Part shown: positions 2,083 to 20,568 of the stretch, in pieces
Layout of the letters: each line of letters starts with the position of its first letter
Position numbering within the stretch: position 1 is the stretch's first letter
From: Flavobacteriales bacterium
GTDB taxonomy: Bacteria; Bacteroidota; Bacteroidia; NS11-12g; UBA955
DNA: 64,000 nt
Assembly (NCBI GenBank): GCA_947447955.1
Contig: CANFLS010000001.1
Span: 62,001-126,000 of the forward strand
Direction of reading: 5' to 3'
Position numbers and translations under genes: made by a program
The notes under the pieces: generated by a model
The model's database searches: none
Seen by the model: the letters and a program-made list of their open reading frames with translations, nothing else
Told to the model about the DNA's origin: nothing

Positions 2083-2240
2083 ACGGATTAGACAGGTTAG
2101 ACAGATTAGACAGATAATTCGGGATTAGACGGATTAGACGGGTTAGACCGATTAGACAGATAATTCGGGATTAGACAGATTAGACAGATTTTTGGTTAGG
2201 CGGTTTTTCCCGATAGTTATCGGGAGGGTTAGACTGATTG
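2077..2240. repeat. R9 array: tandem 9-bp GATTAGACA-type units with interspersed AATTCGGG and CCCGATAGTTATCGGGA hairpin
   Basis: Direct reading: gattagacggattagacaggttagacagattagacag...; begins at the pth stop codon (ggt TAG acg). Confidence 0.9.
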
Positions 2241-2245
2241 GAAAC

Positions 2246-2412
2246 ACTAAACACTAAACGCTAAACCCTAAACGGCGCAGCCATCTAAACCCTAAACGAG
2301 CGCAGCCCAATTAAATAGTTTAGAAGCGTAACCGCGTTTAGATGCACTTTGTGCGTTTAGGAGAGCTTCGCTCGTTTAGAAGACCTTCCGGTCGTTGAGT
2401 AAAGCATAACTA
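2246..2412. repeat. MH array: mini-hairpin units separated by TAAAC/GTTTAG words
   Basis: ggcGCAgcc, gcacTTTgtgc, gagcTTCgctc, gaccTTCCggtc units. Confidence 0.85.
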
Positions 2413-2449
2413 ATTTAGATTAAACCATAAACTATTTTCAATTTATTTT

Positions 2450-2458
2450 TTGTATCTT
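2450..2458 (+). promoter_or_regulatory. Putative Bacteroidetes -7 element (TATCTTTG)
   Basis: tttttgtatctttgataaaagcc just upstream of the DUF433 ORF; matches TAnnTTTG. Confidence 0.5.
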
Positions 2459-2471
2459 TGATAAAAGCCAA

Positions 2472-2678
2472 ATGAAAAACTATCAAGAGTTTATAGTGAT
2501 TGATCCTAATATTCGTTTTGGTAAACCAATATTAAAAAACACCAGAATTTCTGTGGGTGATGTTATTGGTTGGTTATCTGATGGCCAAAAAAAAAACGAG
2601 ATTATTTCTGATTTCCCTGAACTTACAATCGAAATGATTAATGCTTGTCTGGCATTTGTAGCGCAGAGAGAAATATAA
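2472..2678 (+). CDS. DUF433 domain protein (antitoxin-like)
   Basis: DPNIRFGKPILKNTRISVGDVIGWLSDG...ISDFPELTIEMINACLAF is the DUF433 signature. Confidence 0.8.
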   Translation: MKNYQEFIVIDPNIRFGKPILKNTRISVGDVIGWLSDGQKKNEIISDFPELTIEMINACLAFVAQREI

Positions 2679-2704
2679 GGTTTATAAGGGTTGGGGTTGG
2701 TAAT

Positions 2705-2842
2705 CCCTAAACACTAAACACTAAACCCTAAACGAGCGAAGCTCTTCTAAACAGCGCAGCGTAAACAGCCGAAGGCGTCAACTCGCGAAGCGATGTCAAC
2801 TCGCGAAGCGATGTCAACGGCGCAGCCATCTAAACCCTAAAC
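2705..2842. repeat. MH array
   Basis: gagcGAAgctc, gccGAAggc, tcgcGAAgcga (twice in tandem), ggcGCAgcc units. Confidence 0.85.
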
Positions 2843-2872
2843 AATAAAAAATTCATTATCTTTGCTTTCCTT

Positions 2873-3289
2873 ATGGAAATTTCTGAAAACAGACCGATTA
2901 GGGTGTTGATTGCGAAAGTTGGATTGGATGGTCACGACCGTGGAGCAAAAGTGATTGCTTCTGCTTTGCGTGATGCCGGAATGGAAGTAATTTACACCGG
3001 TTTGCGCCAAACGCCTGAAATGGTGGTTCAAACCGCTATCCAAGAAGATGTTGACGCCATTGGTGTAAGTATCCTCAGTGGTGCCCACAACACAGTTTTT
3101 CCAAGAATTTTGAACCTGTTGAAAGACAACGACATCAACGACGTTCTTTTAACCGGCGGAGGAATCATTCCCGATGCCGATATGACAGAACTCAACCAAC
3201 TCGGTGTAGCTCGTTTATTCGCACCTGGTACCGAAATGGCCGAAATTGTTGCCTATATCCAAAACTGGGTAAAAGAGAACAGAGTTTAG
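2873..3289 (+). CDS. Cobalamin (B12)-binding domain protein, methylmalonyl-CoA mutase C-terminal type
   Basis: [34 protein letters not shown]: DxHxxG B12-binding motif. Confidence 0.9.
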
Positions 3290-3291
3290 TT

Positions 3292-3342
3292 GGCTACGCC
3301 GTTTAGGGTTTAGAAGAGCTTCACTCGTTTAGTGTTTAGAGT
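3292..3342. repeat. MH array (short)
   Basis: ggcTACgccgtttag and gagcTTCactcgtttag. Confidence 0.7.
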
Positions 3343-3361
3343 TATTGAATGTAACCACCTA

Positions 3362-3500
3362 TCTTTCTAATCTTTTAATCTGTATAACCAAAAAATCTGT
3401 CTAATCCGTCTAATCCTAATTTATCTGTCTAATCTGTCTAACCAGTCTAATCCTAATTTATCTGTCTAATCTGTCTAATCCGTCTAACCTGTCTAACCCA
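3362..3500. repeat. R9 array, reverse orientation (TGTCTAATC units)
   Basis: aatctgtctaatccgtctaatcc...ctgtctaaccc. Confidence 0.9.
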
Positions 3501-3508
3501 TTTGAAAA

Positions 3509-4195
3509 ATGAAAATAGAAACCATTCTCACCCCGGCCTTGTTTCATCTTCACAGCAAGGATATTGAAAACAAACAAGTTGTTGTTATTGATATACTTAG
3601 GGCTACAACCACCATGGTGGTTGCGTATGAAAATGGTGCCAACAATGTGATTCCCGTTGAACATTTGGAAGATGCACTGGTTTACCGTGAACAAGGTTAT
3701 CTCATTGCAGGAGAACGCAATGGCGTGAAGGTTGAAGGTTTCGATATGGGAAATTCCCCCCAAGAATTTACAAAAGATATTGTTGAGGGACGAAATATTG
3801 TCCTTTCAACCACCAATGGAACCAAGGCCATCAATGCCTGTAGTGCTGCCAAGTTTCGTTATATTTCGTCGTTTCGAAATATCGATGCCATGGCAAAAAC
3901 CATCATTGAAAACAACCTCGACGTGCTTCTTTTTTGTGCCGGTTGGAAAGACAAATTCAACCTGGAAGACACGGTTTTTGCAGGTGCCTTGGCCCAGCAA
4001 TTGCTCGATAACGGCTTTACCACCAATGACGACGCCACCAGAATGGCTTGCTCCCTTTGGAACCTTGCCAAACCAAACCTCGCCGCTTTCCTCGCAGATG
4101 CTTCACACGTACAACGGTTTAAATCGCTCCACATCGAATCTGATTTGGAAGTTTGTTTGCAATTCAATACCTATAAGGGGGTTGTTACGGTATGA
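3509..4195 (+). CDS. comB: 2-phosphosulfolactate phosphatase family (ComB-like)
   Basis: VVVIDILRATTTMVVAYENGA, GERNGVKVEGFDMGNSP and STTNGTKAI motifs. Confidence 0.85.
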   Translation: MKIETILTPALFHLHSKDIENKQVVVIDILRATTTMVVAYENGANNVIPVEHLEDALVYREQGYLIAGERNGVKVEGFDMGNSPQEFTKDIVEGRNIVLSTTNGTKAINACSAAKFRYISSFRNIDAMAKTIIENNLDVLLFCAGWKDKFNLEDTVFAGALAQQLLDNGFTTNDDATRMACSLWNLAKPNLAAFLADASHVQRFKSLHIESDLEVCLQFNTYKGVVTV

Positions 4196-4229
4196 AATCC
4201 TTAGTGGTTGTTTATTATCATCTGAACTA

Positions 4230-4634
4230 ATTCGGATTAGACAGATTAGACGGATTAGAAAGATTAGACAGGTTAGACAGGTTATCCCGAAAGCTTTCGG
4301 GAGGATTAGACAATTCGGGGTTAGACAGATTAGACAATTCGGGATTAGACAGATTAGAAAGATTAGACAGGTTAGACGGATTTTTTGGTTATAAAGATTT
4401 TAGGGTTAATAGATTAAACCGTCTCAGCAAATAAGATAAAAAATATTAATAAGATATTTCACTAAAAGAAAGTTAAATAATAAAAAACTAGTTTAAAAAA
4501 ATTACATATCTATAATAGAATGATTGTTAAGGTTAGAAATATAGAATCTGTCTAATCCGTCTAATCTGTCTAATCCGTCTAATCTCTAAAATAATCCGTC
4601 TAATCTCTAAAAAATCTGTCTAAACAGATTTTTT
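4230..4634 (+). repeat. Composite R9 element: forward array, core, reverse array
   Basis: Forward units 4231-4385, AT-rich core containing ttttttggttataaagattttagggttaatagattaaaccgtctcagc, reverse units 4547-4620. Confidence 0.8.
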
Positions 4635-5951
4635 AGTTAGTTGCACTAATTCCAAAGTTCTATCGGCTAAAAACAAGGGTATATTTAAAATTCCATTATT
4701 CAGTTCTAAATTCTTTAACGAATAACGAATGCTTAAATTGGGTTCAAAAGATTTGCGATAAACGCCCAAACTTTTACTTTGAATGTTCATGTCAGACTTG
4801 ATTTCAACTGGAATCAACTCATTCTTGTATTGAATGAGTAAATCTACTTCTGCTGAATTACCAGATGTCCAATATCTCGGTGTAACATCAAACTGATTGA
4901 TAATACTTTGTAAAATATAATTCTCGGTAAAAGCTCCTTTAAATTCAACAAAAATATTGCTGTTTTCGGCAAATATGGAAGGATCTAACTTTGACAATCG
5001 GCGCAAAATTCCCACATCGAAACAATATAATTTATAAGCACTTAGATCATCATAACCGCTTAGTGGTAATTTTGGTGATTTGCAGAGGTTAACACGGTAA
5101 ACCAATCCCGCATTGATTAACCAGGTCAAAGAATCTTCGTATTCTCTAGCGCGAGCACCTTCTTTCACTAGCTGGTATATAAATTTCTTGTTTTCTCTCG
5201 CCAATTGCGATGGGAGAGAATTCCATACATAACCAATTTTTTGAACGTCTTTTCCAACGGCATGTTTACTAAAATCATTGGTGTATGACATCAATAAATC
5301 GTTTAATAAATTCTCAACCAAAACAATGTCTTTGTTTTCGAGATAAGTTTTGGCCACTTTGGGAAGTCCCCCAGAAACAAAATAGTTTCTAAATTGCTCT
5401 AACAGTGGATGAAAGAAAATATCTGGAATGGGTTCGATGACATTGATTTGATTGACATATGTATATAACGTTGGATTTGCTACAGCCAAATATTCAAAAA
5501 ATGACAGTGGTTTAATTTCGGTAAAGGTTACCTTGCCAACAGGAAAAGAAATACCATTTCCCAAGGCAATGCCTAGCAAAGAGCCCGCACAAATGATATA
5601 AAGTTCGGGTAGATTTTCATTGAAGTACTTTAAACTGCCTAAGGCTGCTTTACATGCTTGAATTTCATCAAAAACAATGAGTGTATCGGCAGTAATTTTA
5701 CTACCATGCACGAAGGTTAAGTTCGATAGAATGCGATTTACATCTTTCGTTGATTCAAAAAGTTGATTCAACTCGGGATTTTCATCGAAGTTAAAATAGG
5801 CAATGTTTTGAAAATGATTTTTACCTAACCATTTCATTAAATAGGTTTTTCCTACTTGTCTGGCTCCATTTAAAATTAATGGGGGATGGTCGGCGGCATT
5901 TTTCCATTGCAATAATTTGCTCTGTGCTGATCTTTCAAAAACAATGCTCAT
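4620..5951 (-). CDS. AAA ATPase with DUF4143 domain
   Basis: LILNGARQVGKTYLMKWLG Walker A, LIVFDEIQ Walker B, C-terminal VDLLIQYKNELIPVEIK nuclease-like motif. Confidence 0.9.
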   Translation of the reverse strand: MSIVFERSAQSKLLQWKNAADHPPLILNGARQVGKTYLMKWLGKNHFQNIAYFNFDENPELNQLFESTKDVNRILSNLTFVHGSKITADTLIVFDEIQACKAALGSLKYFNENLPELYIICAGSLLGIALGNGISFPVGKVTFTEIKPLSFFEYLAVANPTLYTYVNQINVIEPIPDIFFHPLLEQFRNYFVSGGLPKVAKTYLENKDIVLVENLLNDLLMSYTNDFSKHAVGKDVQKIGYVWNSLPSQLARENKKFIYQLVKEGARAREYEDSLTWLINAGLVYRVNLCKSPKLPLSGYDDLSAYKLYCFDVGILRRLSKLDPSIFAENSNIFVEFKGAFTENYILQSIINQFDVTPRYWTSGNSAEVDLLIQYKNELIPVEIKSDMNIQSKSLGVYRKSFEPNLSIRYSLKNLELNNGILNIPLFLADRTLELVQLTKKSV

Positions 5952-6038
5952 AGAATGGTAAGTTGTTTATTTACAATGCAAATATAGTCTTTCTACATGT
6001 TATATTCTAAAAAGTGCTATGGAAAATGTGATTTTTTA

Positions 6039-6094
6039 CACAAAAGTCGTATGACTTTTGTGATATTTCCCACATTTGTCATATGACTTTTGTG
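6039..6094. promoter_or_regulatory. Two tandem 24-bp palindromes (operator-like)
   Basis: CACAAAAGTCGTATGACTTTTGTG (6039-6062) and CACATTTGTCATATGACTTTTGTG (6071-6094). Confidence 0.5.
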
Positions 6095-6101
6095 ATAATT
6101 T

Positions 6102-6420
6102 ATTCGGGGTTAGACAATTCGGGGTTAGACAGATTAGACAATACGGGATTAGACAGATTAGACAATACGGGATTAGACAGATTAGACGGGTTAGACGGAT
6201 TAGACAGATTCTATATTTCTAACCTTATCAATCATTCTGTTATTTGTATTTAATCTTTTTTATATTATTCGATTATTATCCCTGATTTGCTTTTTTGTAA
6301 TAAATTATCCTATTAATTGTTTGCTATTTAATTTGTTTAAACGGTTTAATCTTTAAACCCTAAATCAATCTAATCAAAAAATCTGTCTAATCTGTCTAAT
6401 CAGTCTAACCCGTCTAATCT
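6102..6420 (-). repeat. Composite R9 element (core in reverse orientation relative to 10195)
   Basis: Forward units 6102-6210, reverse units 6376-6420; the RES gene stop codon TAG lies in the array. Confidence 0.8.
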
Positions 6421-6878
6421 CGAATAAAAACCCTACTATCAAAAGGAAACCTCTCAACTTCAATAATTTGGATACTATCAAATAGTGGATGCTTGGGATT
6501 GATTAGCAAATTATAATCGCCTTTGGTGACAACAGATGGAATTTGCATCACACAATATTTGTTTTCTGCAATAAATTGATCACCAATTTGCTGTGTGGAT
6601 TGTGGGTGTGGAAAGGTATTCCAATTTGCTAGTAAAATGGAATTGTCTATTTTGAAGATTTCAATTTCATCTGGGATATGAATTGTGACCATCATGAAAT
6701 TTTTTGGCAATGTTGCAAGTGTGAAATGGACCGCAACTTCTGCCATTGCCAATGAGCGATTGGCTGCCGCATAAATCACCTCAACACCAATGGAATTCCA
6801 GCGAGCTCCATATATTGCAGCTCCTTTTCCCGATAATGAATTGGCAAATTGCTGGCTTGTCAATCTAAAGACTTCCAT
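6414..6878 (-). CDS. RES domain toxin
   Basis: GKGAAIYGARWNSIGVEVIYAAANRSLAMAEVAVH is the RES family N-terminal signature. Confidence 0.9.
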   Translation of the reverse strand: MEVFRLTSQQFANSLSGKGAAIYGARWNSIGVEVIYAAANRSLAMAEVAVHFTLATLPKNFMMVTIHIPDEIEIFKIDNSILLANWNTFPHPQSTQQIGDQFIAENKYCVMQIPSVVTKGDYNLLINPKHPLFDSIQIIEVERFPFDSRVFIRD

Positions 6879-6881
6879 TTT

Positions 6882-7403
6882 TTACACCATAATTCCGTGT
6901 TGTACTCGTATCAATTCCGATACCACCAATTCTTTGCCATATGAATCTGTGAGTAATTCAATGGGCTTATTGTTTCCCAAAGCAAAATTTGGCGTATTTA
7001 ACCAAAGCTTGAATTGTGCTAAATCATCAAAAATATCTAAACCAATTTTTGTAACCTCAGCCATTGCAATGATTTTTTCAGATTGCAATGATTTAAAAGC
7101 ATGGGTTTCACTCATTTTATAGCGCTGTAATGATTTGGTTGAAATATTTAATAATTTGGCCCAGTCACTCTCTGAAAATGGAGTGTAATCTTGAATTGCA
7201 TGAAAGAGTGAATAAGGAATTCCTTTTCTTATAGCACTAATTATCAGTATTTTATCAGCTAGAAACTCCGAGTATGTCAACTTTTTATTCAAGCCAACGG
7301 GTATATACTCAACTTTAGATTCGCTCACGAACCTATTGATTTCATTCTCCAGATTTTCTTCGATTGACTTATACCCCTTACTCATATTCGGACACTTGTA
7401 CAC
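6882..7403 (-). CDS. Xre/MbcA/ParS-type antitoxin (DUF2384) paired with RES toxin
   Basis: Immediately upstream of the RES gene; LNISTKSLQRYK HTH and C-terminal FGLNTPNFALGNNKPIELL-like motif. Confidence 0.85.
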   Translation of the reverse strand: MYKCPNMSKGYKSIEENLENEINRFVSESKVEYIPVGLNKKLTYSEFLADKILIISAIRKGIPYSLFHAIQDYTPFSESDWAKLLNISTKSLQRYKMSETHAFKSLQSEKIIAMAEVTKIGLDIFDDLAQFKLWLNTPNFALGNNKPIELLTDSYGKELVVSELIRVQHGIMV

Positions 7404-7468
7404 AAATATAGGACAAAAGTCTAATAATATTACAAAATTTGGAGAAATTTTGTAATATTATGGTTTAT

Positions 7469-7595
7469 AAAGGTTTATAAGCGTTTAGATGGCTTCGCCG
7501 TTTAGAAGAGCTTCGCTCGTTTAGGGTTTAGAGTTTAGGGTAACCATCAACTTCCAGTGTTTAGTGTTTAGGAGGGAAACCATAAAACAACCCTA
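7469..7595. repeat. MH array
   Basis: atggcTTCgccgtttagaagagcTTCgctcgtttagggtttag. Confidence 0.85.
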
Positions 7596-7672
7596 AACAC
7601 ACAAAGATTGATTGTTAGATTAATATTATTTAATTTTGAATCAATTGCAAAGTTTAGTATTAAACCCTACCT

Positions 7673-7972
7673 ATGCGCTTAAACGTCAGTCAACAAAATG
7701 CTTTGAAACAGGTTTTTGGAAATCTTCCTGGTGAAGTTTTTTTATTTGGATCGCGCGTTGATATGAACCGAAAGGGTGGTGATATTGATATACTTTGGAT
7801 CACAGATATCAAAGAAAATAGAACCCTTAAAAAAGAAATGGAGCTCACAATTCAGTTTCAAAAAATATTGGATGAACGACTCGATTTATTGATCTTGCCC
7901 CCTGTAGACCAAATGACAAATTCAGAAAGGGCATTCTGTTCGTCTTTAAAGATTCAAAGACTGTTTGAATGA
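7673..7972 (+). CDS. MNT-type minimal nucleotidyltransferase
   Basis: VFLFGSRVDMNRKGGDIDILW: GSRx(n)DxD NTase motif. Confidence 0.8.
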   Translation: MRLNVSQQNALKQVFGNLPGEVFLFGSRVDMNRKGGDIDILWITDIKENRTLKKEMELTIQFQKILDERLDLLILPPVDQMTNSERAFCSSLKIQRLFE

Positions 7973-7996
7973 TAAATTGGGTTTAGGGTTTAGTCG

Positions 7997-8218
7997 TCAA
8001 CAACTTGGGTGACTTTCAATTTCGGAGATAATATTGTCTAAAATTTCAGCAACTTCAAAAAGTTTGAATTCGATTATTGGTGGTGTAACATCCCTTTTGC
8101 CGTGAGCAATATAGTTTCTATGATCTTTAATTATTTTGAGGTTTTTTAGTTGGCTTGGAGAAATTAGACCATCGAATAATTTGATAATACCTGATAATCT
8201 ATCTATTTTGTCATTCAC
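7997..8218 (-). CDS. HEPN-like small protein (possibly a fragment)
   Basis: KDHRNYIAHGKR resembles the Rx4-6H HEPN motif; convergent to the NTase. Confidence 0.4.
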   Translation of the reverse strand: MNDKIDRLSGIIKLFDGLISPSQLKNLKIIKDHRNYIAHGKRDVTPPIIEFKLFEVAEILDNIISEIESHPSC

Positions 8219-8227
8219 TTACAAACT

Positions 8228-8446
8228 GGGTTAGACAGGTTAGACGGGTTAGACAGGTTAGACGGATTCCTTATTCTTGAACATCTAACCATTCTGGTCT
8301 TTGTGTCTAATCTTTTTAATCTATTTATTATCGCTATTTAATCTAATTTGTTTACGCGACGCTATTTATTTAATCTTCTAACCCTAGAATCTTTCTAATC
8401 AAAAAATCTGTCTAATCTGTCTAATCTGTCTAACCCGTCTAATCTT
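8228..8446 (-). repeat. Composite R9 element (reverse core)
   Basis: Forward units 8228-8268, reverse units 8407-8444; core is reverse complement of the 10260-10410 and 11245-11350 cores. Confidence 0.85.
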
Positions 8447-8523
8447 TAAATGCGTTAGCGATGTTAACAGCTATGAATGAGCGTCAACTATATCTAAACT
8501 TTTATAAACCTTTTTCTTATTCC

Positions 8524-9069
8524 TCAATACAACCATTCTTCAATAATTTTTTCTACAATATCCTTGTTTAATTCAAAATGATCTTCTTTGTTGATTGATT
8601 TTGCTAGGTACCAATCGTAAGATTTATCATTATGTAATTTCCGAAAAATACTCACTTTTTTATCAATCTTTCCGCGCATGTAAAATTCCAATTTTCCATC
8701 ATACTCAGACGTTAAAGCAGCAATAGGTTCAATGACTAAATACTTACTTTCTGATAAGGTAATTTCTAGATTGGTTGTTGAATACTCTCCGATAAATGGT
8801 TCAAAGCGTTTTATTGGTATGATTTCAAAATTCATCAGACCGTTTTTATCATATTCATCAAACCATTTGTAAATAATTGTATTGATTAAAGTTGAAATTG
8901 CATTTTGCCATTCAATTTTATAGTTTTCCCAATTGTTTTCGGGTTTAGTATTGTTTTTTAGTTTTTCTAATTTTTCCTTCAATGCCATAACCAATGTGTT
9001 TTTAAATTTACACCAATCAAAATTAATTAATTTTAGTTTACCCATCAATTGTTTCCGCGATTTTTGCAA
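8524..9069 (-). CDS. Hypothetical protein
   Basis: Long ORF with coding-like composition; no family recognised. Confidence 0.6.
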   Translation of the reverse strand: MQKSRKQLMGKLKLINFDWCKFKNTLVMALKEKLEKLKNNTKPENNWENYKIEWQNAISTLINTIIYKWFDEYDKNGLMNFEIIPIKRFEPFIGEYSTTNLEITLSESKYLVIEPIAALTSEYDGKLEFYMRGKIDKKVSIFRKLHNDKSYDWYLAKSINKEDHFELNKDIVEKIIEEWLY

Positions 9070-9093
9070 AAAGAAAAAAGGGAATTAGAAAGT

Positions 9094-9150
9094 TTATAAA
9101 AGTTTAGATGGCTTCGCCGTTTAGAAGAGCTTCGCTCGTTTAGGGTTTAG
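9094..9150. repeat. MH array
   Basis: atggcTTCgccgtttagaagagcTTCgctcgtttagggtttag, near-identical to 7480-7530. Confidence 0.85.
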
Positions 9151-9164
9151 GGAAACAAAAACAA

Positions 9165-9388
9165 CCCTAAAATCTTTATAATCAAAAAATCTGTCTAATC
9201 TGTCTAATCTGTCTAACCCGTCTAATCTTTAAATGCGCGAAGCGTATTTTACTTTACGTTTGAAAATATTGCAAAAAGGTTCGAATTTTACTTTACGTTT
9301 GAAAATTTTTAATCTTTTAACCCTAAAATCTTTATAATCAAAAAATCTGTCTAATCTGTCTAACCCGTCTAATCTGTCTAATCTTTTT
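9165..9388. repeat. Two tandem partial R9 element ends (reverse orientation)
   Basis: aaccctaaaatctttataatcaaaaaatctgtctaatc... occurs at ~9165 and again at ~9318. Confidence 0.8.
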
Positions 9389-9411
9389 TTCTTACTTTTG
9401 TAAGAAAAAAA

Positions 9412-10179
9412 ATGAACATCACAACCCATACCGAAAATAACATTACCATCATTACCATCAACCGTGAAAGCAAATTGAATGCACTCACAATCGATACCCT
9501 GCGCGAAATCAAAGAGGCAGTTACCATTGCCAATGCCGATGATTCCGTGTACGGAATGATCATTACTGGCGCTGGACAAAAAGCCTTCGCTGCCGGTGCC
9601 GATATCTCTGAGTTTGCCCATTTCAACGAAGAGCAAGCTACCAGAATGAGCGCCGATGGTCACGATGTGATGAACACCATTGAAGATGGAAATAAAATAT
9701 GCATCGCTGCTGTCAATGGCTTTGCTTTGGGTGGGGGATGTGAGCTCGCAATGGCTTGTCACCTGAGAATTGCCAGTGGAAACGCCAAATTTGGTCAACC
9801 AGAAGTGAACCTCGGCGTGCCTCCAGGTTACGGCGGTACCCAACGACTCATACAACTCATAGGAAAAGGGAAAGCCCTTGAACTTTTACTAACCGGCGAT
9901 GCCATCGACGCACAAACCGCCCTTCAATTGGGACTAGTAAACCACGTGGTAGAACAAGACCAATTGATGGAATATTGCATGCAATTGTTGCAAAAAATTG
10001 CATCTAAAAGCCCGTCTGCCGTGCACAAAGTACTCAAATGCGTAAGCGACTTCTACCGTCCTAACGTAAACGGCATGCAGCGCGAAATCTACGAATTCGG
10101 CAGCGCATTCGAAACCCCAGATTTTAAAGAGGGAACTGAGGCGTTTTTGGAGAAAAGAAAGCCAAATTTTAGGGCTTAA
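9412..10179 (+). CDS. Enoyl-CoA hydratase
   Basis: AFAAGADISEF, GFALGGGCELAMACHLRIAS and LGVPPGYGGTQRL motifs. Confidence 0.95.
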   Translation: MNITTHTENNITIITINRESKLNALTIDTLREIKEAVTIANADDSVYGMIITGAGQKAFAAGADISEFAHFNEEQATRMSADGHDVMNTIEDGNKICIAAVNGFALGGGCELAMACHLRIASGNAKFGQPEVNLGVPPGYGGTQRLIQLIGKGKALELLLTGDAIDAQTALQLGLVNHVVEQDQLMEYCMQLLQKIASKSPSAVHKVLKCVSDFYRPNVNGMQREIYEFGSAFETPDFKEGTEAFLEKRKPNFRA

Positions 10180-10194
10180 GCCCTAAAATTTGGC
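10161..10194. repeat. Perfect 34-bp palindrome centred on the enoyl-CoA hydratase stop codon
   Basis: GCCAAATTTTAGGGCTT/AAGCCCTAAAATTTGGC. Confidence 0.95.
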
Positions 10195-10495
10195 GGATTA
10201 GACAATTCGGGGTTAGACAGGTTAGACGGGTTAGACAGATTAGACAGATTTTTTGATTAGAAAGATTTTATGGTTAGTAGATTAAACCGTCTCAACAAAA
10301 AAGTTAGGTTTGGAGCAAAACGACAATTCGCTGAGATTTAATAAATAATTGATAATAAATAGATTAAAAATATTTGAATCTTAAACCAAAATGTTTAGAT
10401 GGTTAAGAATAAGGAATCTGTCTAATCTGTCTAATCTGTCTAATCCGTCTAATCTAGATAAAATCTGTCTAAACGGTCTAACCCGTCTAATCTAA
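10195..10495 (+). repeat. Composite R9 element
   Basis: Forward units 10195-10250; core ttttttgattagaaagattttatggttagtagattaaaccgtctc...; reverse units 10415-10493. Confidence 0.85.
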
Positions 10496-10497
10496 AT

Positions 10498-10510
10498 ATA
10501 TTATATTTGC
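10498..10510 (+). promoter_or_regulatory. Putative -7 element (TATATTTG)
   Basis: attatatttgcacaATG upstream of purQ. Confidence 0.45.
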
Positions 10511-10513
10511 ACA

Positions 10514-11188
10514 ATGAAATTCGGTGTGGTAATTTTTCCAGGTTCAAATTGTGACCAAGATCTAATTGATGTTTTGTCGGGGTATTCGAGTGAAGCTGTT
10601 GAAAAACTTTGGCACAAATCAAGTGATTTGAAGGGATGTACCCATATTTTTATTCCGGGGGGATTCAGCTACGGCGATTACCTTCGCTCTGGTGCCATTG
10701 CAAAATTGAGTCCCATTATGGACGCTGTTTCTCAGCATGCTGCCAACGGCGGTTTTGTCATGGGGATCTGTAACGGTTTCCAAATTCTAACCGAAAGTGG
10801 CTTGTTGCCAGGCGCCCTATTGCGCAACACCAATATCAAATTTAATTGTAAAAATGTGTTCCTAACTCCTGGAACCACCAATAGCATGGTAACCAATAAA
10901 TTGGCTGACAATCAAGTGATTCAGGTTCCCATTGCACACGGTGAGGGACGTTTCTATTGCGACCAAGAAACCTTGGCACAAATTGAAGCCAACAACCAGG
11001 TTATTTTCCGCTATTGTGATTCTGAGGGAAACCTTACCGACGAATCCAATCCAAACGGATCAATCAACAACATCGCAGGTATCACCAACGCAGGTAGAAA
11101 TGTATTTGGTATGATGCCGCATCCGGAGAGGTGCGCAGCAGAGTATCTGCTCAATGCAGACGGCAAATATATTTTTGAGAGTCTCTAA
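10514..11188 (+). CDS. purQ: Phosphoribosylformylglycinamidine synthase subunit I
   Basis: KFGVVIFPGSNCDQD, GGFSYGDYLRSGAIA, GICNGFQIL and PHPER motifs. Confidence 0.95.
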   Translation: MKFGVVIFPGSNCDQDLIDVLSGYSSEAVEKLWHKSSDLKGCTHIFIPGGFSYGDYLRSGAIAKLSPIMDAVSQHAANGGFVMGICNGFQILTESGLLPGALLRNTNIKFNCKNVFLTPGTTNSMVTNKLADNQVIQVPIAHGEGRFYCDQETLAQIEANNQVIFRYCDSEGNLTDESNPNGSINNIAGITNAGRNVFGMMPHPERCAAEYLLNADGKYIFESL

Positions 11189-11396
11189 ATATTAGAGATT
11201 AGACGGATTAGACGGGTTAGACCGATTAGACAGATTTTTTGATTAGAAAGATTATATGTTTAGACGGATAAAATAAACAGCGAAGCGTAAACAAATAAAT
11301 AGATTAAAAAGATTATTCACAAAGACCAGAAAGGCAAGAAGATTAAAAATATAGAATCTGTCTAATCTGTCTAACCCGTCTAATCTGTCTAATCAT
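11189..11396 (+). repeat. Composite R9 element
   Basis: Forward units from 11197; core gattttttgattagaaagattatatgtttagacgg...aaataaatagattaaaaagatt...; reverse units 11354-11394. Confidence 0.85.
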
Positions 11397-11405
11397 TTTT
11401 ATTTT

Positions 11406-11967: not shown

Positions 11968-12999
11968 ATGACAAACAAAGTAATAATTACCGGCTCAACA
12001 GGCCTAGTAGGCTCCCACCTAACTTGCCATTTGCTAACTATGGGTTACCACGTAGTGGGAATCAAGCGCGCCCACAGCAGCATGAAATTGTTTGATTCCG
12101 TGAAAAACCATTATTTGAATCAGGAGACGGATGTGCTGAAGGGGTTGTTTGGGGGAGAGGCTGTGAAGTTGGATCTGCAGAAGCTGCAGGAGGGAATTGA
12201 TCAGCGGTTGAGCTGGGCTACCGCCGATATACGCGATACCGATGCCTTGGTTGAGGCGTTTTCTGGGGAGATAGATGCGGTATTTCATTGTGCGGCTATG
12301 GTGTCCTTCAAGAGAAAAGATAGGAATGCAATGATGGAGAACAACATACAAGGCACTGCCAATGTGGTGAACACTTGTATTAAGTTGGGAATTACTACGC
12401 TGCTTCATGTGAGTTCGGTGGCGGCGCTGTCGCGGAAAGCCGGCAGTGATTTGATTACGGCCGATTCTGAATGGGAGGATTCGAAATACAACACCGATTA
12501 CGCAAAAAGCAAGTATTATTCGGAGTTGGAAGCATGGAGGGGCAAGGAAGAGGGCCTCAATGTGGCAGTGATTAATCCTGGTATCATATTGGGCGTAGGC
12601 AGTGGCAACACACCTCAGAATCAGTTTATTGGCATTGTGAATGCAGGCAATCCTTTTGTTCCTATTGGGGGAAATGGCTTCGTTTGGGTAGACGATTTGT
12701 GTTCGCAAATGATTGAAATGGTGGATAATGCGGTGTTTGGAAAGCGCATACTGGGCGTGACGCACAACCTAAAATATACGTCGTTGTTTAACAACGTTGC
12801 CAAACTTGCGGGCAAAAAAGCCCCATCCATTCGCATTGAAGGCTGGGTGTTTAAGCTGCTGTTTGGACTTACATCGGTTTTTGATTTCCTTAGAATTCCC
12901 TTTCCGGTGAGTAAGGATTTGGTGGTCAGCACGAGCACTTCGTGCGTTTACATTGCTACGCAAGTTGACGCTGCGCTGTTGACGGCTGCGCCTGTTTAA
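11968..12999 (+). CDS. NAD-dependent epimerase/dehydratase (SDR); C-terminus appears replaced by repeat-encoded sequence
   Basis: ITGSTGLVGSHLTCHLL Rossmann motif, YAKSKYYSE; tail SCVYIATQVDAALLTAAPV is encoded by MH units. Confidence 0.85.
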   Translation: MTNKVIITGSTGLVGSHLTCHLLTMGYHVVGIKRAHSSMKLFDSVKNHYLNQETDVLKGLFGGEAVKLDLQKLQEGIDQRLSWATADIRDTDALVEAFSGEIDAVFHCAAMVSFKRKDRNAMMENNIQGTANVVNTCIKLGITTLLHVSSVAALSRKAGSDLITADSEWEDSKYNTDYAKSKYYSELEAWRGKEEGLNVAVINPGIILGVGSGNTPQNQFIGIVNAGNPFVPIGGNGFVWVDDLCSQMIEMVDNAVFGKRILGVTHNLKYTSLFNNVAKLAGKKAPSIRIEGWVFKLLFGLTSVFDFLRIPFPVSKDLVVSTSTSCVYIATQVDAALLTAAPV

Positions 13000-13105
13000 T
13001 TAATTGCAAAGAATTATCGTTTGGAAACTTGCGAGTGAAACGATGCAAATTCAACAGCGTAGCGTCAACAGCTCAGAATGAGCGTCAACTTGCAAAGCAA
13101 CTTCA
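12935..13105. repeat. MH array
   Basis: gcacTTCgtgc, ttgcTACgcaa, ggcTGCgcc, gctcaGAAtgagc, ttgcAAAgcaa units. Confidence 0.85.
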
Positions 13106-13180
13106 ATCTGTCTAATCTAATTTATTGTCTACTCACAAAATTTTTCTGAATATCCAAATCTATTTATTTAATTTCGACCC

Positions 13181-14623
13181 GTGTTATTCAACTCATTTGA
13201 ATTCTTACTTTTTCTGCCAATTGTTTTTATACTTTATTGGTTTGTGTTCAACAAATCACTGAAGTGGCAAAATGCTTTGATATTGGTAGCCAGCTATTTC
13301 TTCTATGGTTGGTGGAGTTGGAAGTTCATGGGTTTGTTGATGCTCAGCACACTATTAGATTATTTGTATGGATTTTGGGTGGCTTCACCCAATCGAAAGA
13401 AAGCAAAGTTTTTTCTCTATTTGAGTATAATAAACAATCTTGGAATACTAGGAGTATTTAAATATTACAATTTTTTTGCCTTACAATTTCAAAAAGGATT
13501 TGAATTGTTGGGATTACATACCCATCCTGTTTTGTTAAATGTGGCATTGCCAATTGGTATTTCATTTTATACCTTCCATGGGATGTCTTATGTTTTTGAT
13601 ATTTACTGGGGAAACCAAAAGCCAGTCAAAAGTTTTGTAGATTATGCGGTTTTTGTGAGTTTCTTTCCATTGTTGGTTGCGGGGCCTATTGAAAGGGCAA
13701 GTCACTTGTTGCCTCAGGTTCAAAAAAGACGTGACTTTAACTATACCCAAGCAGTTGAGGGATGTAGGTTGATTCTGTGGGGGATGTTTAAAAAAGTGGT
13801 AATTGCTGATTCATTGGCGGGAACGGTTGATGCAATTTTCAACAACTACCAACACGAAAATGGTGTCACCTTAATCATAGGGGCAATTGCATTTAGTTTT
13901 CAGATTTATGGGGACTTTAGCGGTTATTCAGACATCGCATTAGGGACTGCCAAGTTATTTGGTTTTGAATTGTTAAGCAATTTCAAATTTCCATATTTTT
14001 CGAGGGACGTAGCTGAGTTTTGGAGACGATGGCATATTTCATTATCAAGTTGGTTCAGAGATTATTTATACATCCCGTTAGGAGGTTCTAAAAATGGCAA
14101 ATACAAAGCCATCCGAAATACGTTCATCATCTTTTTGGTAAGTGGATTTTGGCATGGTGCAAGTTGGAATTTCATTGCTTGGGGATTTATTCACGCGTGT
14201 GGTTTCTTGCCATTGCTATTACTCAATCGCAATCGAAAACACGTTACAGATGTGGTTGCTCAAAATCGTAAATTGCCAAACCTAAAAGAACTCTGGCAAA
14301 TGATAAGCACTTTTGCTTTTGTTACATTTACTTGGATTTTCTTTAGGGCGAAAGATATGGGTGAGGCTTTGAATTACATAGAAAGAATATGCTCAAGTAT
14401 AATTAATAATCCAAAGCAGTTTTTTAGTTTTCCTGGAGGGAAAATGGCAATTATTTATATTACCCCTTTAATAATGGGCGATTGGTGGTTTAGACGTTAT
14501 GAGCGAAGTTTAAGAGTAAGTAAGAGAGCATCTATAACGAATATAATTTACTTTGTAGTTTTATACCTAGTTCTTATGAAATTTGAACGAAACTCTTCTA
14601 ATTTTATTTACTTTCAATTTTAA
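13181..14623 (+). CDS. MBOAT family O-acyltransferase (AlgI-like), copy 1
   Basis: FPLLVAGPIERASHLLPQ and FWRRWHISLSSWFRDYLYIPLGG...FLVSGFWHGASWNFIAWG motifs. Confidence 0.95.
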   Translation: MLFNSFEFLLFLPIVFILYWFVFNKSLKWQNALILVASYFFYGWWSWKFMGLLMLSTLLDYLYGFWVASPNRKKAKFFLYLSIINNLGILGVFKYYNFFALQFQKGFELLGLHTHPVLLNVALPIGISFYTFHGMSYVFDIYWGNQKPVKSFVDYAVFVSFFPLLVAGPIERASHLLPQVQKRRDFNYTQAVEGCRLILWGMFKKVVIADSLAGTVDAIFNNYQHENGVTLIIGAIAFSFQIYGDFSGYSDIALGTAKLFGFELLSNFKFPYFSRDVAEFWRRWHISLSSWFRDYLYIPLGGSKNGKYKAIRNTFIIFLVSGFWHGASWNFIAWGFIHACGFLPLLLLNRNRKHVTDVVAQNRKLPNLKELWQMISTFAFVTFTWIFFRAKDMGEALNYIERICSSIINNPKQFFSFPGGKMAIIYITPLIMGDWWFRRYERSLRVSKRASITNIIYFVVLYLVLMKFERNSSNFIYFQF

Positions 14624-15570
14624 TGAAATTTTTTCTATTTAATCTAACAAAATTATTAATAATTTTTGTTTTGTCATCTTTGACACTGTCTCTTTTTGTT
14701 GCGATAACCACATATTGGACTCCCAAAATTGAAAATTTAACATTTGGCCACATTAGTAATTGGGGTAATACTTATGAGAGAAGTTTGGATTTTAAGAATT
14801 GGAATAAATTGTCTAACAAACCAAAGGGAGTTATCTTGGGTAGCTCAACTGCCTATAGGAACATCAACTCAACAATTTTAACTCAGCAAACAAATATAAA
14901 TTGGTTTATTTTAGGAAGTAACGCACAATCTCCTCCAGTTAGTCTTATCTTATTTAAAAATCTAATTGAAAAAACAAACCCGGACTACATAATAATAGAT
15001 ATATACGGTGGTGTATATGAAAATAACGGTCGAGAATCTGCATATGATTTAATAAACAATTCTACATTCCCTTTGTCATTAAAATTGAAATTATTCACTT
15101 TAGTTCCAAATTATCATTCATTACAAATATTAATTTATCGTTATTTGCATGAAAAGATTAAAGGGAATCTTTTCATAAGGAAGAAGAAATCAAATGGAAA
15201 ATATATCAAAGGAGGTTCTACATTTACGCCATATAAGAGATTTGAAATTGACAAAAATGACAAGCTAAAATTTTCGAGAATCAAAATAAATAAAGAGTTA
15301 AGATATATAATTAATTATTGTGATAAAAAGTCTATTATTGTAATTATTAATATTTCGCCGATTATAGGTAGAAAACAAATTTACGAAATTGATTATGATA
15401 AAGTAATAGTTAATGATGATTTCAATCATAGGAATGATTTGTTTTATGATGATCATCACATGCATGGTAAAGGCTCGGTGGAATATACTAAAAAACTCGC
15501 TGAAAAATTGAAATTGTCGAAATACATTAACTCTTTTAAATCAACTAATACTATTAGAGGCTCAAATTAA
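14623..15570 (+). CDS. SGNH/AlgJ-like partner of MBOAT copy 1
   Basis: N-terminal TM; GVILGSSTAYRNI block; D..H near C-terminus (YDDHHMHGKG). Confidence 0.5.
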   Translation: MKFFLFNLTKLLIIFVLSSLTLSLFVAITTYWTPKIENLTFGHISNWGNTYERSLDFKNWNKLSNKPKGVILGSSTAYRNINSTILTQQTNINWFILGSNAQSPPVSLILFKNLIEKTNPDYIIIDIYGGVYENNGRESAYDLINNSTFPLSLKLKLFTLVPNYHSLQILIYRYLHEKIKGNLFIRKKKSNGKYIKGGSTFTPYKRFEIDKNDKLKFSRIKINKELRYIINYCDKKSIIVIINISPIIGRKQIYEIDYDKVIVNDDFNHRNDLFYDDHHMHGKGSVEYTKKLAEKLKLSKYINSFKSTNTIRGSN

Positions 15571-15739
15571 TTTTCTTTAAGACATGATAATAGTTGTGTA
15601 AGTATTTGGATTGAAAGATTGGATGAATGTATTTTCTATTTTATTTTGAATATATTATTGTTTAATAATCAGATTAAAATAACAGTATAGAAAATGGTGA
15701 TTGTAGATTGGATTATGAAGGATTTTTTTTATATCGTAT

Positions 15740-17042
15740 CACTAGTGTCCCGTTGTAATTAAAAGATATTCAATTGGTTGGGAAAATCAGAATCTTTAAA
15801 ATGAGATTATCCATTGCTAACTAATTGATTTATTGGTTCTTTTTCGAATATGGATATACTAATAACCCGTAAAAAACTGTAGAGAGTTTGTTGGATTTTG
15901 AGCTTTTTCTTGGCTATTGCAACTATTAAATATGAACAAATGGCTATCCATATTTAACAATGAATTGCATTTTCTGTTGTTCCATAAAATGATTTGATTT
16001 TCAAGTGTTGTTTAATCCATTTGAAAAAGAGTTCGATTTTCCATTTTTCTTTGTAAGGGCCAGCAATTGTTGTAGCCTCAATATCGAAATGATTGGTTAA
16101 AAATATAAATGTTTTGTTTTTTTCTAGGTCGTGAAATTTAATTCTTCTAAGGTGCGATGGATATTTTGCCTGAGATTGTGGATGGATGAATTTTATCGTT
16201 TGATCTACCTGAATATCAACTGCTTTCTTGGCTGAATGGCTATAAACTCGGTCGAAAGCCATGTTCTCTTTCGCCCTTATAACGAAAAAGGCACCCGCTT
16301 GTTGAATACGAAATAATCTTTGATAATCAATATATCCCATATCCATAATATAGAAAGCTCCAGCTTCTATTGGTAACTGATCGAAAATATTCACATCATG
16401 CACCGAACCAGGCGTTATTTTGATAAAAGTAGGGATAGAACCTTGTAAATCATGCAATGTGTGCATTTTAACTGCGCCCTTATTTTGCCGAAATTTCGCC
16501 CACGGAAACATCTGTAAACAAAGGTCGATTGTGGTACTATCTAGTGCATAAGCCATATGATCAATATCGATCAAAAAAGTATTTTCTTGTGCATACAGCT
16601 TGCGTGTCTGAGTAATCAAAACTTGCGCAAAATCAGCATAGATTCGCCAATTCCTGCGCTCGTTGGCTTTGGCAAGTGTATTCCTAACCACGGGCTTTTT
16701 GATGCCGCTGTGATACAACTTTTTACTCATGGCCTGAAGTCAAGATTCGATGTATCTCAAACTATATCTGTAGGTTAACTGTACGAATGACATCACCAAA
16801 AAATGCTCTTTACAACTAGATTCCTTAACTCGATAATCACCATTATATCTGTCCACACATTTACTGAATTCGTAATCAGATATGAGAGACATCAACTGCG
16901 AAAAAACTGTCTTTCCAAGATTTATTTTCTAGTTTAATCACATTTTTTGAGACATTCAAATCGAAAAAACTAAAAATCGCTGTAAACATCAGTATTTATT
17001 GGGGTTTACAAGGATTGAAAAAAAGTTAACGGGACACTAGTG
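15740..17042 (-). mobile_element. IS4-family-type insertion sequence (1303 bp), TIR CACTAGTGTCCCGTT, TSD ATATCGTAT
   Basis: Inverted ends cactagtgtcccgtt/aacgggacactagtg; identical 9-bp flanks at 15731-15739 and 17043-17051. Confidence 0.9.
15815..16905 (-). pseudogene. IS4-type transposase interrupted by in-frame stop codons (ORF 15954-16730 is the central part)
   Basis: Same-frame conceptual reading: ...MSFVQLTYRYSLRYIES*LQAMSKKLYHSGIK...FYGTTENAIHC*IWIAICSYLIVAIAKKKLKIQQTLYSFLRVISISIFEKEPINQL. Confidence 0.85.
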
Positions 17043-17169
17043 ATATCGTATAAAACATATAAATCTAATTCTACATAAATCAGTTCGTTGATTTCTGACC
17101 TAATTATTCAATTTGCATGGAAGGCTGTTTTTTGTTACTTTTGGTGATCATCATTGGTCATTTTGATTT

Positions 17170-17350
17170 TCACCGAATTCCTTTTCCGGTGTGAGTGAGG
17201 ATTTGATGGTCAGTACGAGCACCGATTCTATTTATGAGTTGGCTTACATGCATTGCCATGCGTTTAGGATGGAATCGAAATTAGAAACACCATTTGCTAA
17301 ACGATTGGCAGCTCTCCTAAACGCGCTTAGCGACTCTAAACGCGTTTAAG
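17170..17350 (+). pseudogene. 3' fragment of the SDR epimerase (second copy) plus MH remnants
   Basis: aattccttttccggtg..agtgaggatttgatggtcagtacgagcacc matches 12893-12940. Confidence 0.75.
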
Positions 17351-17422
17351 CTTCTAAACCAAATTCAAGTCTATTCACAAAATTTTTCCAAATATCCAAA
17401 ACCATTTATTTAACTTCGCTCT

Positions 17423-18871
17423 GTGTTATTCAACTCATTTGAATTCTTACTTTTTCTGCCCATAGTATTTATACTTTATTGGTTTGTGTTTAACAAATCA
17501 TTGAAGTGGCAAAATGCATTGGTGCTTATTGCCAGCTATTTCTTCTATGGATGGTGGAGTTGGAAGTTCATGGGCTTGTTGATGCTCAGTACACTATTAG
17601 ATTATTTGTATGGATTTTGGGTAGCATCATCGAAACGAAAAAAAGCCAAATTATTTCTGTGGTTGAGTATAATTAACAACCTAGGTATCCTTGGAATATT
17701 TAAATATTACAACTTTTTTGCGCTCCAATTTCAAAAAGGTTTTGAAATCTTGGGGTTACATACCCATGCGGTTTTATTGAATGTGGCATTGCCAATTGGT
17801 ATTTCATTTTATACCTTCCATGGAATGTCGTATGTTTTTGACATCTACCGTGGAAATCAAAAACCAGTAAAAAGCTTTATCGATTATGCTGTTTTTGTGA
17901 GTTTCTTTCCGTTGTTGGTTGCAGGTCCTATTGAAAGAGCTAGTCACTTGTTGCCACAGGTTCAAAAAAGACGAGACTTTAACTATACCCAGGCTGTTGA
18001 GGGATGCAGGTTGATTCTTTGGGGGATGTTCAAGAAAGTGGTAATTGCTGATTCATTGGCAGGAACTGTCGATGCAATTTTCAACAATTACCAACATGAA
18101 AATGGCGTTACCTTAATCATTGGTGCCATTGCTTTTAGTTTTCAGATCTATGGGGACTTCAGTGGATATTCAGACATTGCCTTAGGAACAGCCAAATTGT
18201 TCGGATTCGAATTATTAAGCAATTTCAAGTTTCCATATTTTTCGAGGGATGTAGCAGAGTTTTGGCGACGTTGGCATATTTCATTATCAAGTTGGTTTCG
18301 GGATTATTTATACATTCCGTTGGGAGGGTCTAAGAATGGTAAATTCAAAGCCATTCGAAATACGTTTATTATTTTCTTAGTCAGTGGTTTTTGGCATGGT
18401 GCCAGTTGGAATTTCATCGCATGGGGTTTCATTCATGCCTGTGGTTTCTTGCCATTGCTAATATTGAATCGTAATCGAAAACATGTAACCGATGTAGTAG
18501 CACAAGATCGAAAGTTTCTCAACCTAAAAGAATTGTGGCAAATGGCAACCACATTTGTTTTTGTAACGTTTGCTTGGGTGTTTTTTAGAGCGAAGGATAT
18601 GGGTGAAGCTATGGGGTATATTCAAAATATCGGTACTAGTATTTATGAAAATCCAAAGCAGTTTTTATCATTGCCTGGAGGGAAGATGGTATTTATATAT
18701 ATAATACCATTGATTTTTGGAGACTGGATTTTAAGAAAGGATGAGAGAATCTTAAATTTAAATATTGACAATTCAAGAATTCGTTTTATTTTCTTCTCCT
18801 TACTTTCAATTATTATTCTATTAAAATTTATTTTTAATCAAGGTTCATCATTTATTTATTTTCAATTTTAA
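17423..18871 (+). CDS. MBOAT family O-acyltransferase (AlgI-like), copy 2
   Basis: Nearly identical to 13181-14623 over ~390 aa, diverging in the last ~80 aa. Confidence 0.95.
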   Translation: MLFNSFEFLLFLPIVFILYWFVFNKSLKWQNALVLIASYFFYGWWSWKFMGLLMLSTLLDYLYGFWVASSKRKKAKLFLWLSIINNLGILGIFKYYNFFALQFQKGFEILGLHTHAVLLNVALPIGISFYTFHGMSYVFDIYRGNQKPVKSFIDYAVFVSFFPLLVAGPIERASHLLPQVQKRRDFNYTQAVEGCRLILWGMFKKVVIADSLAGTVDAIFNNYQHENGVTLIIGAIAFSFQIYGDFSGYSDIALGTAKLFGFELLSNFKFPYFSRDVAEFWRRWHISLSSWFRDYLYIPLGGSKNGKFKAIRNTFIIFLVSGFWHGASWNFIAWGFIHACGFLPLLILNRNRKHVTDVVAQDRKFLNLKELWQMATTFVFVTFAWVFFRAKDMGEAMGYIQNIGTSIYENPKQFLSLPGGKMVFIYIIPLIFGDWILRKDERILNLNIDNSRIRFIFFSLLSIIILLKFIFNQGSSFIYFQF

Positions 18872-19953
18872 TGAGGACGTTTATAAAAAAATTATTAGTT
18901 CACTTTTGTATACCTTTAGTTTTATTGGGATATGTGATTTACATAGGTTTTATTCATAATTTACATGTAACAAGATATCTAACACACAGATTTCTAATCG
19001 GTGAACCATATAGTGAAAATTACATAAAATGGTATAAATGGCAAAAAAAATTAGATAACATTAACTTAATCGCAATTGGTTCTTCACGTATATTACAATT
19101 TAAGGCTGAATTTTTCACAACCACCTTTTTTAATATGGGATACCTCGTAGGAACTCCAAAACAAACCTTACAACTAATTAAGGAAAAACAAATAAAGAAT
19201 AAAACACTAATTATTTCCTTAGATCAATGGGCATTTAATTCGGAGTGGTTGAGAAATCAAAGTTCATTTAATAAGCCATCGAAACCTAATTTTTTTAATT
19301 CAAGTTTATCTGCTGCTAGATTAGAAGACATAATAAAATTAAAATTATTACCTCTTTTAAATTCATCTAAAAATAATATATTAAAAATTGGTGCGGCTGC
19401 AAACATTGCCTTAGACGGAATTACTAATGACGGCTCTTACTATTATGGTAAAATTTATCAAGGGTTATTAACAAATGATAAAAAATTAATCGTTGAAGAT
19501 TATGAATTCGTTGATACAAAAAATAGAATAAAAAAAGGAGATAGACTTTTTCAGCATGGTCAACAATCGGATTTTTTGGCACTTATTGATTTTGAAGAAC
19601 TAGTTAAATTTAATTTAAAACAGGGTAACAAGGTAATTTACTTTTTTCCACCTTTTGCTCCAACTATACAAAATTTACTTAAAGGAAATAATTTTAAATA
19701 TATTGTTGATGCATCTAATAAAATTTGTCAAATTGCAAAATTTAACAATGTGAGTTTCTTTGACTATACATTCTTTAATTCAACTGATCAAATGTATATC
19801 GACGGATTTCATGGCGGAGCATTGGTATACTATAAAATTGCAGAAACAATGGGTTTGAAAACTAGAAAATGTTCTTTTATTAATTATTTTGAAACCACCA
19901 AAGATGGAGATTTAGTTGATGCGCGAAAAAAATTATTTACATCTTATAAATGA
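18871..19953 (+). CDS. SGNH/AlgX-like partner of MBOAT copy 2
   Basis: LIAIGSSRILQF and DGFHGG motifs; adjacent to MBOAT; not obviously similar to 14623-15570. Confidence 0.5.
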   Translation: MRTFIKKLLVHFCIPLVLLGYVIYIGFIHNLHVTRYLTHRFLIGEPYSENYIKWYKWQKKLDNINLIAIGSSRILQFKAEFFTTTFFNMGYLVGTPKQTLQLIKEKQIKNKTLIISLDQWAFNSEWLRNQSSFNKPSKPNFFNSSLSAARLEDIIKLKLLPLLNSSKNNILKIGAAANIALDGITNDGSYYYGKIYQGLLTNDKKLIVEDYEFVDTKNRIKKGDRLFQHGQQSDFLALIDFEELVKFNLKQGNKVIYFFPPFAPTIQNLLKGNNFKYIVDASNKICQIAKFNNVSFFDYTFFNSTDQMYIDGFHGGALVYYKIAETMGLKTRKCSFINYFETTKDGDLVDARKKLFTSYK

Positions 19954-20078
19954 AATTGAATAAGCAAATGTATTTGAAATTTAAAATTGTCTCTAATATA
20001 AATTTTCATTTTACTTTCTGTTATTTAGGGGATGTGCAGTTGCAAAAGAACTGATAATTAATTTATTGGTATTGCCAA

Positions 20079-20240
20079 TGCGGGTAAAAAAGCCCCATCC
20101 ATTCGCATCGAGGGCTGGGAGTATAAACTACTGTTTGGACTTACTACGGTTTTTGATTTCCTGAGAATTATCTTTCCGATGAATAAGGATCTGGTGGTGA
20201 GCATAAGCACTACGTGCGTTGATATTGCTTCGCAAGTTGA
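20079..20240 (+). pseudogene. 3' fragment of the SDR epimerase (third copy)
   Basis: aaaaaagccccatccattcgcatcgagggctggg...gatttcctgagaatt matches 12815-12935. Confidence 0.8.
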
Positions 20241-20480
20241 CAGCACTACGTGCGTTTAAGGCTAAACTAGTTTACGCTACGCTATTTACGCTGCGCTATT
20301 TAATTATAGGTAATTACCTTAAAAAATCTGTCTAAACTTCCCGAAAGCTTTTCGGGATAACCCTCACGATATCTATCGGGATAATCAGTCTAATCCCTTT
20401 TTGCTAAACGACCTCCCGATAGCTATCGGGAGGTCTTCTAAACGCGCATAGCAACTCTAAACGCGTTTACACCTCTATAC
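20200..20480. repeat. MH array with R9 fragment and CCCGATAGCTATCGGGA hairpins
   Basis: gcacTACgtgc (twice), ttgcTTCgcaa, gacctcccgatagctatcgggaggtc. Confidence 0.8.
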
Positions 20481-20568
20481 TAATTTTGGATCTATTCACA
20501 AAAATTAACATCCTTATAATCCTAGTTGATTTTATTTTAGGATTTTAACACTACCTTTGTTAGCGTAA

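Follow-up and report, generated by a model that had tools for sequence, protein, structure and literature searches.

The window, by which we mean the whole 64,000-nucleotide stretch of DNA that was analysed, comes from a freshwater Flavobacteriales genome (G000) and carries an SDR-type NAD-dependent epimerase/dehydratase gene whose last codons run into an array of short hairpins. Stretches of ~390 kb from G000 and 200 kb from a sister genome, G007, were compared. G007 is syntenic with the window, with blocks of 67–90% nucleotide identity and 81% at the epimerase. A Pfam search placed the PF01370 domain of the epimerase at residues 5–254 (1.4e-26), and relatives were found in 56 of 57 genomes, with the G007 relative at 84%. 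Most of the uncertainty comes from two sides: the sequence is a metagenome assembly, and G007 alone is near enough to serve as outgroup for the fusion event described below. The features of the locus are as follows:

11968–12999, plus strand: SDR-type NAD-dependent epimerase/dehydratase gene (Pfam Epimerase)
11968–12934, plus strand: part of the epimerase homologous to orthologues, ending ...LVVSTS
12934–12939, plus strand: probable deletion junction; by local alignment, 34 bp of G007 are absent between GAG and CACTTCGTGCG
12935–12999, plus strand: derived C-terminus from array units; the GNA-loop strand is the minus strand
13000–13110, no strand assigned: remaining mini-hairpin array 3′ of the ORF, CAACAGCGTAGCGTCAACAGCTCAGAATGAGCGTCAACTTGCAAAGCAA
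13181–14623, plus strand: MBOAT acyltransferase, duplication unit 1 (Pfam MBOAT, 1.9e-27)
15731–17051, minus strand: IS element between the MBOAT units, with a DDE_Tnp_1 transposase at 15954–16730
17161–17340, plus strand: epimerase 3′ end, copy B; ancestral ...STSTDSIYE kept, then a GCATTGCCATGCGTTTAG unit
17423–18871, plus strand: MBOAT acyltransferase, duplication unit 2 (Pfam MBOAT, 5.6e-25; D1 repeat)
20079–20259, plus strand: epimerase 3′ end, copy C; shares the junction of copy A

Three copies of the epimerase 3′ end were borne out by alignment, as a first-pass annotation of this DNA had claimed: A (the gene itself), B, and C. Copies A (12807–12969) and C (20079–20241) are 87% identical over 163 aligned nt. 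Copy B matches at 84% over 17161–17191, and its homology runs on to GAGCAC at ~17222. After AGCAC, copies A and C go into GCAC-TNC-GTGC mini-hairpins. The hairpins that the annotation had read there, gcacTTCgtgc and gcacTACgtgc, were located at 12935–12945 (GCACTTCGTGC, once in the window, 0.00 expected by chance) and at both 20207–20217 and 20243–20253 (GCACTACGTGC, 0.01 expected by chance in the window). Copy C has three hairpin units (GCAC/TTGC/GCAC) and is a fragment without an intact ORF. Copy B had been said to continue as VSTSTDSIYE, and it does end in ancestral-type ...STSTDSIYE; slightly further on it too enters a hairpin unit, GCATTGCCATGCGTTTAG, which also occurs at other arrays. 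The annotation had counted the junctions in A and C as separate occurrences. Their similarity, however, spans the junction, with 85.9% identity before it and 31 of 35 nt identical from the hairpin onward, so copy C most simply inherited the event through duplication. This leaves one event rather than two, and the recurrence in copy C no longer counts as evidence that such hairpins form by snap-back.

The multiplied segment, consisting of the epimerase 3′ end, an MBOAT gene, and a downstream gene, covers positions 12807–20520. MBOAT unit 1 has 84.6% nucleotide identity to unit 2 and 83.7% to G007. The genes that follow the MBOATs (14623–15570 and 18871–19953) appear unrelated or far diverged, and G007 has a single MBOAT followed by yet another-looking gene. 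The IS element has a 15-bp terminal inverted repeat, CACTAGTGTCCCGTT, and a 9-bp target duplication, ATATCGTAT.

The C-terminus of the epimerase, ...STSTSCVYIATQVDAALLTAAPV before the stop, is translated from array units at 12935–12951, 12953–12969, and 12984–12999, in keeping with the earlier description of it as repeat-encoded. The first two units read GCAC-TTC-GTGC GTTTAC and ATTGC-TAC-GCAA GTTGAC; the third and fourth read GCTGCGCT GTTGAC and GGC-TGC-GCC T GTTTAA, the array supplying the stop. The tail, TSCVYIATQVDAALLTAAPV, is absent from the same-genus orthologues compared (G007, G009, G006, and G004). The G007 epimerase ends in ...VSTSADSVYEIV, i.e. VSTS-ADSVYEIV, and the proteins of G009, G006, and G004 end in ...VSTSKKSVYS, ...VSTSKKSIYS, and ...VSTSRKSHYVI, respectively, each directly before the stop. 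Given that the ancestral-type ending VSTS-xxS-(V/I)Y is kept in both copy B and these orthologues, the tail in the window is derived.

In G007, an intact epimerase stop is followed by a homologous array (CACTTCGTGCG...GCAAGTTG...). This post-stop DNA, CACTTCGTGCGATGTACTGCGCAAGTTGA...GAGCTGTTTAAGGATTCGCCTGTTTAAT, aligns in order with the array of the window at a score of 51, where the highest of 2000 shuffles reached 26, and the site was the best among all tiles over 200 kb (34.5 for the next), with the caveat that arrays are mutually alike and part of the similarity could be generic. The 34 bp of G007 absent from copy A are the ancestral C-terminus, the stop, and a spacer. A colinear reading was also considered, in which TSCVY is set against ADSVY without gaps. 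The GTTTAC at 12946–12951 does coincide with the V-Y codon position of the orthologues, but the preceding 9 nt do not match (~2 of 9 between STS and VY), and the 34-bp deletion alignment to the post-stop array of G007 was far better. Aligning the three copies with G007 in MAFFT imposed the colinear reading, and that alignment was set aside.

We therefore consider it likely that a deletion fused the epimerase ORF to an array already present 3′ of it. The alignment shows that the ancestor shared with G007 already had a GNA-loop array in the untranslated DNA 3′ of the epimerase. A deletion of ~34 bp in the G000 lineage would then have taken the last ancestral codons, the stop, and the spacer, and the gene's ...GAGCAC was probably joined to the array's ...CACTTCGTGCG at CAC/GCAC microhomology, presumably by replication slippage or microhomology joining. 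The first arm in G007 reads GTCAC rather than GCAC; the microhomology visible today is thus CAC, and its fourth base is inferred from other arrays. Such a deletion would give the gene's own GCAC the role of first arm without any copying. The segment carrying the epimerase 3′ end, MBOAT, and downstream gene would have been multiplied around the time of the deletion, copies A and C deriving from the deleted form and copy B from the undeleted one. The common unit, at 18 bp, holds whole codons only, and stops come from the words GTTTAA and GTTGAC, which is why the fused frame is open for ~20 residues and then ends.

A second gene was found to have undergone the same kind of fusion, as the annotation had predicted for genes whose ancestral coding sequence matches a first arm. 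The PAP2-like gene at C12:41039–41791 of G000 (labelled from the sequence as read, with no family search) ends in CAATGGCAC-TCC-GTGC-GTTGAC (NTQWHSVR before the stop; stretch CAATGGCACTCCGTGCGTTGAC), compared with CAATTGCACAGGCTTTAG in G007 (NTQLHRL; stretch CAATTGCACAGG...) and CAGTTGCACAATTAG in G006 (NAQLHN). Here the gene's own ancestral GCAC was fused, independently of the epimerase, to the block GCACNNCGTGCGTT (GCAC-NNC-GTGC-GTT). No array was found 3′ of the PAP2-like stop in G007, so the order of events is unreadable at that gene. The block itself occurs at 21 sites genome-wide, compared with 0 in a control, and at 14 of the 21 it is preceded by the array's own word and not by a gene, which indicates that loop, second arm, and word travel preformed as one. 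Gene and array probably met at GCAC, a word that both contain. An HTH gene at C1:132593–132967 (ending LEHFVR before the stop, with block GCACNNCGTGCGTT) was dropped as a test case, since the array word GTTTAGA already stands before its GCAC and no close orthologue was found in 108 genomes of the order or in plasmids.

These observations also bear on how else the junctions could have arisen. If a mobile array family inserted beside GCAC, with the target serving as first arm, gene ends would be captured by insertion. In favour of this, an ancestral GCAC marks the join in two unrelated genes, the sister genome has no array behind the PAP2-like gene, and arrays are dispersed across all gene contexts. 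At the epimerase, however, the array is older than the fusion. Neither a target duplication nor fixed element ends were seen, and no Y1 or REP-associated transposase was found in G000 or 11 members of its genus, making insertion an improbable explanation.

The annotation had proposed instead a snap-back at a break: the gene's GCAC would have folded over and served as the template for GTGC, and a GTTTAC-type word with more units would have followed. One part of this stands: the first arm is ancestral coding sequence, as seen at the epimerase through copy B and at the PAP2-like gene through G007 and G006. Template switching is also generally established as a maker of hairpins (PMC8794818, PMC7202029). 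The inverted copying did not hold up, and we rate it slightly below insertion. The loop, second arm, and subsequent units are present in the same order behind the intact stop of G007, and the identical block lies behind the array word at 14 sites with no gene involved. Complementarity ends at exactly 4 bp in both gene fusions, whereas copying into the gene might have produced arms that run on into its own sequence, and arrays that merely adjoin gene ends (2873–3289 and 66217–68133) showed no first-arm match. Least probable is a chimeric assembly join caused by the repeated arrays, several of which lie at contig ends of G000 (C4, C20, C22, C26, C28, and C53), given that junctions A and C both sit inside a 241-kb contig syntenic with G007 and differ by 10–15% on either side of the junction, so that neither is a misplaced copy of the other. 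Deletion into a pre-existing array thus remains our preferred account of the epimerase tail.

The arrays to which these genes were joined form an unusual repeat family with a loop rule. Across 61 kb of intergenic DNA, a count of perfect hairpins (stem length 4 bp or more) gave 82 c(GNA)g loops (24 distinct) against 3.1 expected, and 20 c(GNNA)g loops (15 distinct) against 3.05 expected. Ratios of 0.8 to 1.5, near expectation, were obtained for 5-nt loops, for the remaining triloops and tetraloops, and for loops with G-C or A-T closure. The stems covary: among 69 distinct units, a stem of 3 bp or more forms in 57, compared with 19 (maximum 30) when the arms were re-dealt. Units lie between GTMAAC words at a spacing of 16–19 bp, a pattern with 123 genomic matches versus 30 for its reverse. 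G000 carries the family in strength; G007 has it too (14 versus 1.2), G013 shows it by pattern (56 versus 30), and most other relatives sampled had no clear excess. Lying as they do at the contig ends listed above, arrays probably interrupt the assembly and are more numerous than the counts given here. A dispersed composite in fixed order, ACCGC-GNA-GCGGT CTAAAC GCATGGCAATGC TTCTAAAC..., was also observed at C1:126345, 126898, 130325, and 137278 of G000 and at C1:184009 of G007. A 90-aa ORF at C1:126495–126767 of G000 ends in residues (IPSGVDIPSGVDSASQVDA) translated purely from array DNA and is another candidate for a repeat-encoded C-terminus.

Of the 44 array clusters, 42 lie outside ORFs, in all gene orientations, and 11 are between divergent genes. 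Where the neighbouring genes are co-directional, 9 clusters have the GNA strand antisense to them and 6 have it sense. With no fixed orientation to transcription, an intrinsic terminator or other transcript-level hairpin was rejected, as was a known structured RNA family, there being 0 Rfam matches at the gathering threshold in window positions 1–26000. A folding-energy model showed no GNA advantage, the GAA strand scoring −2.3 kcal/mol and the TTC strand −2.7, and a strand test on G-T versus A-C stem mismatches found few imperfect true units.

The loops in excess are those of the ultra-stable DNA mini-hairpins of d(GCGAAGC) type, described in PMC4686876 (citing Hirao and Yoshizawa) as a GNA or GNNA loop with G-C pairs; the enriched array loops match this exactly, as GNA and GNNA with C-G closure. 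As presented there, the motif is a biophysical one known from oligonucleotides, whereas the arrays are dispersed genomic repeats, and literature text searches found no description of GNA/GNNA mini-hairpins as a dispersed bacterial repeat family. REP, REPIN, and BIME elements are RAYT-mobilised short dispersed extragenic palindromes with a conserved tag beside the hairpin (PMC3733652). The arrays resemble REP elements in being dispersed, extragenic, and often clustered, with a short tag adjoining the hairpin, and paired stem changes also occur within REP sub-families. They differ in tag (GTAG or CGTC in REP, GTMAAC/GTTTAG here), in their stems of 3–5 bp with many sequences per genome, and in their head-to-tail spacing of 16–19 bp. 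REP/RAYT mobilisation was rejected because PF01797 (RAYT/Y1) matched nothing in G000 or in 11 genomes of its genus; it was found in controls and in four genomes of the same order. Palindromic repeats read in frame within proteins are also represented by the Rickettsia palindromic elements, which differ in being internal insertions of a defined element, while the epimerase tail is a C-terminal fusion by deletion.

The fixed parts of the family appear to be the word (GTMAAC/GTTTAG), the C-G-closed GNA or GNNA loop, and self-complementary variable stems. Arrays most likely grow by tandem duplication, and the arms are probably kept complementary through hairpin-templated repair or template switching, or through selection for a single-stranded DNA hairpin. 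Quasipalindrome correction by template-switch mutation makes and maintains perfect hairpin arms (PMC8794818, PMC7202029) and could explain the covarying arms. Template switching may thus account for arm complementarity inside arrays, but it is unnecessary at the epimerase junction, where the second arm pre-existed. We tentatively suggest, as a possibility well short of an established mechanism, that only word, loop, and self-complementarity are inherited, that stems are rewritten as the single-stranded DNA mini-hairpin drives templated repair and tandem growth, and that gene ends are captured when arrays pair with stem-like words (GCAC) in the coding DNA.

Other repeats share the intergenic DNA of the source species, which is a mosaic of repeat words poorly conserved in G007. 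A second type, with runs of 9-bp period (GATTAGACA/GATTAGACGG/GGTTAGACA), occurs in many intergenic gaps, namely at window positions 2083–11405 and in most gaps of 1–25000. The 12-mer ATCTGTCTAATC is found 31 times in the window, and further words include telomere-like CTAAACCCTAAAC runs and CCCGATAGCTATCGGG palindromes. In G011, a different species of the genus, the intergenic DNA 3′ of the epimerase has runs of other words (GGTCTTTGG, GACTATGGG, and GCTGATAGCTGA), which suggests species-specific vocabularies of the same kind of intergenic DNA.

The junction is an outgroup-polarised example of an intergenic hairpin array turning into protein sequence, and the PAP2-like gene adds a second case. 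Of greater importance is the array family, as a natural genome here obeys the loop rule of oligonucleotide chemistry while its stems change in step. That the clusters favour neither strand with respect to transcription points to the DNA level, and the arrays let one ask a question that is usually confounded by RNA function: are DNA hairpins kept by replication-linked template switching or by selection?
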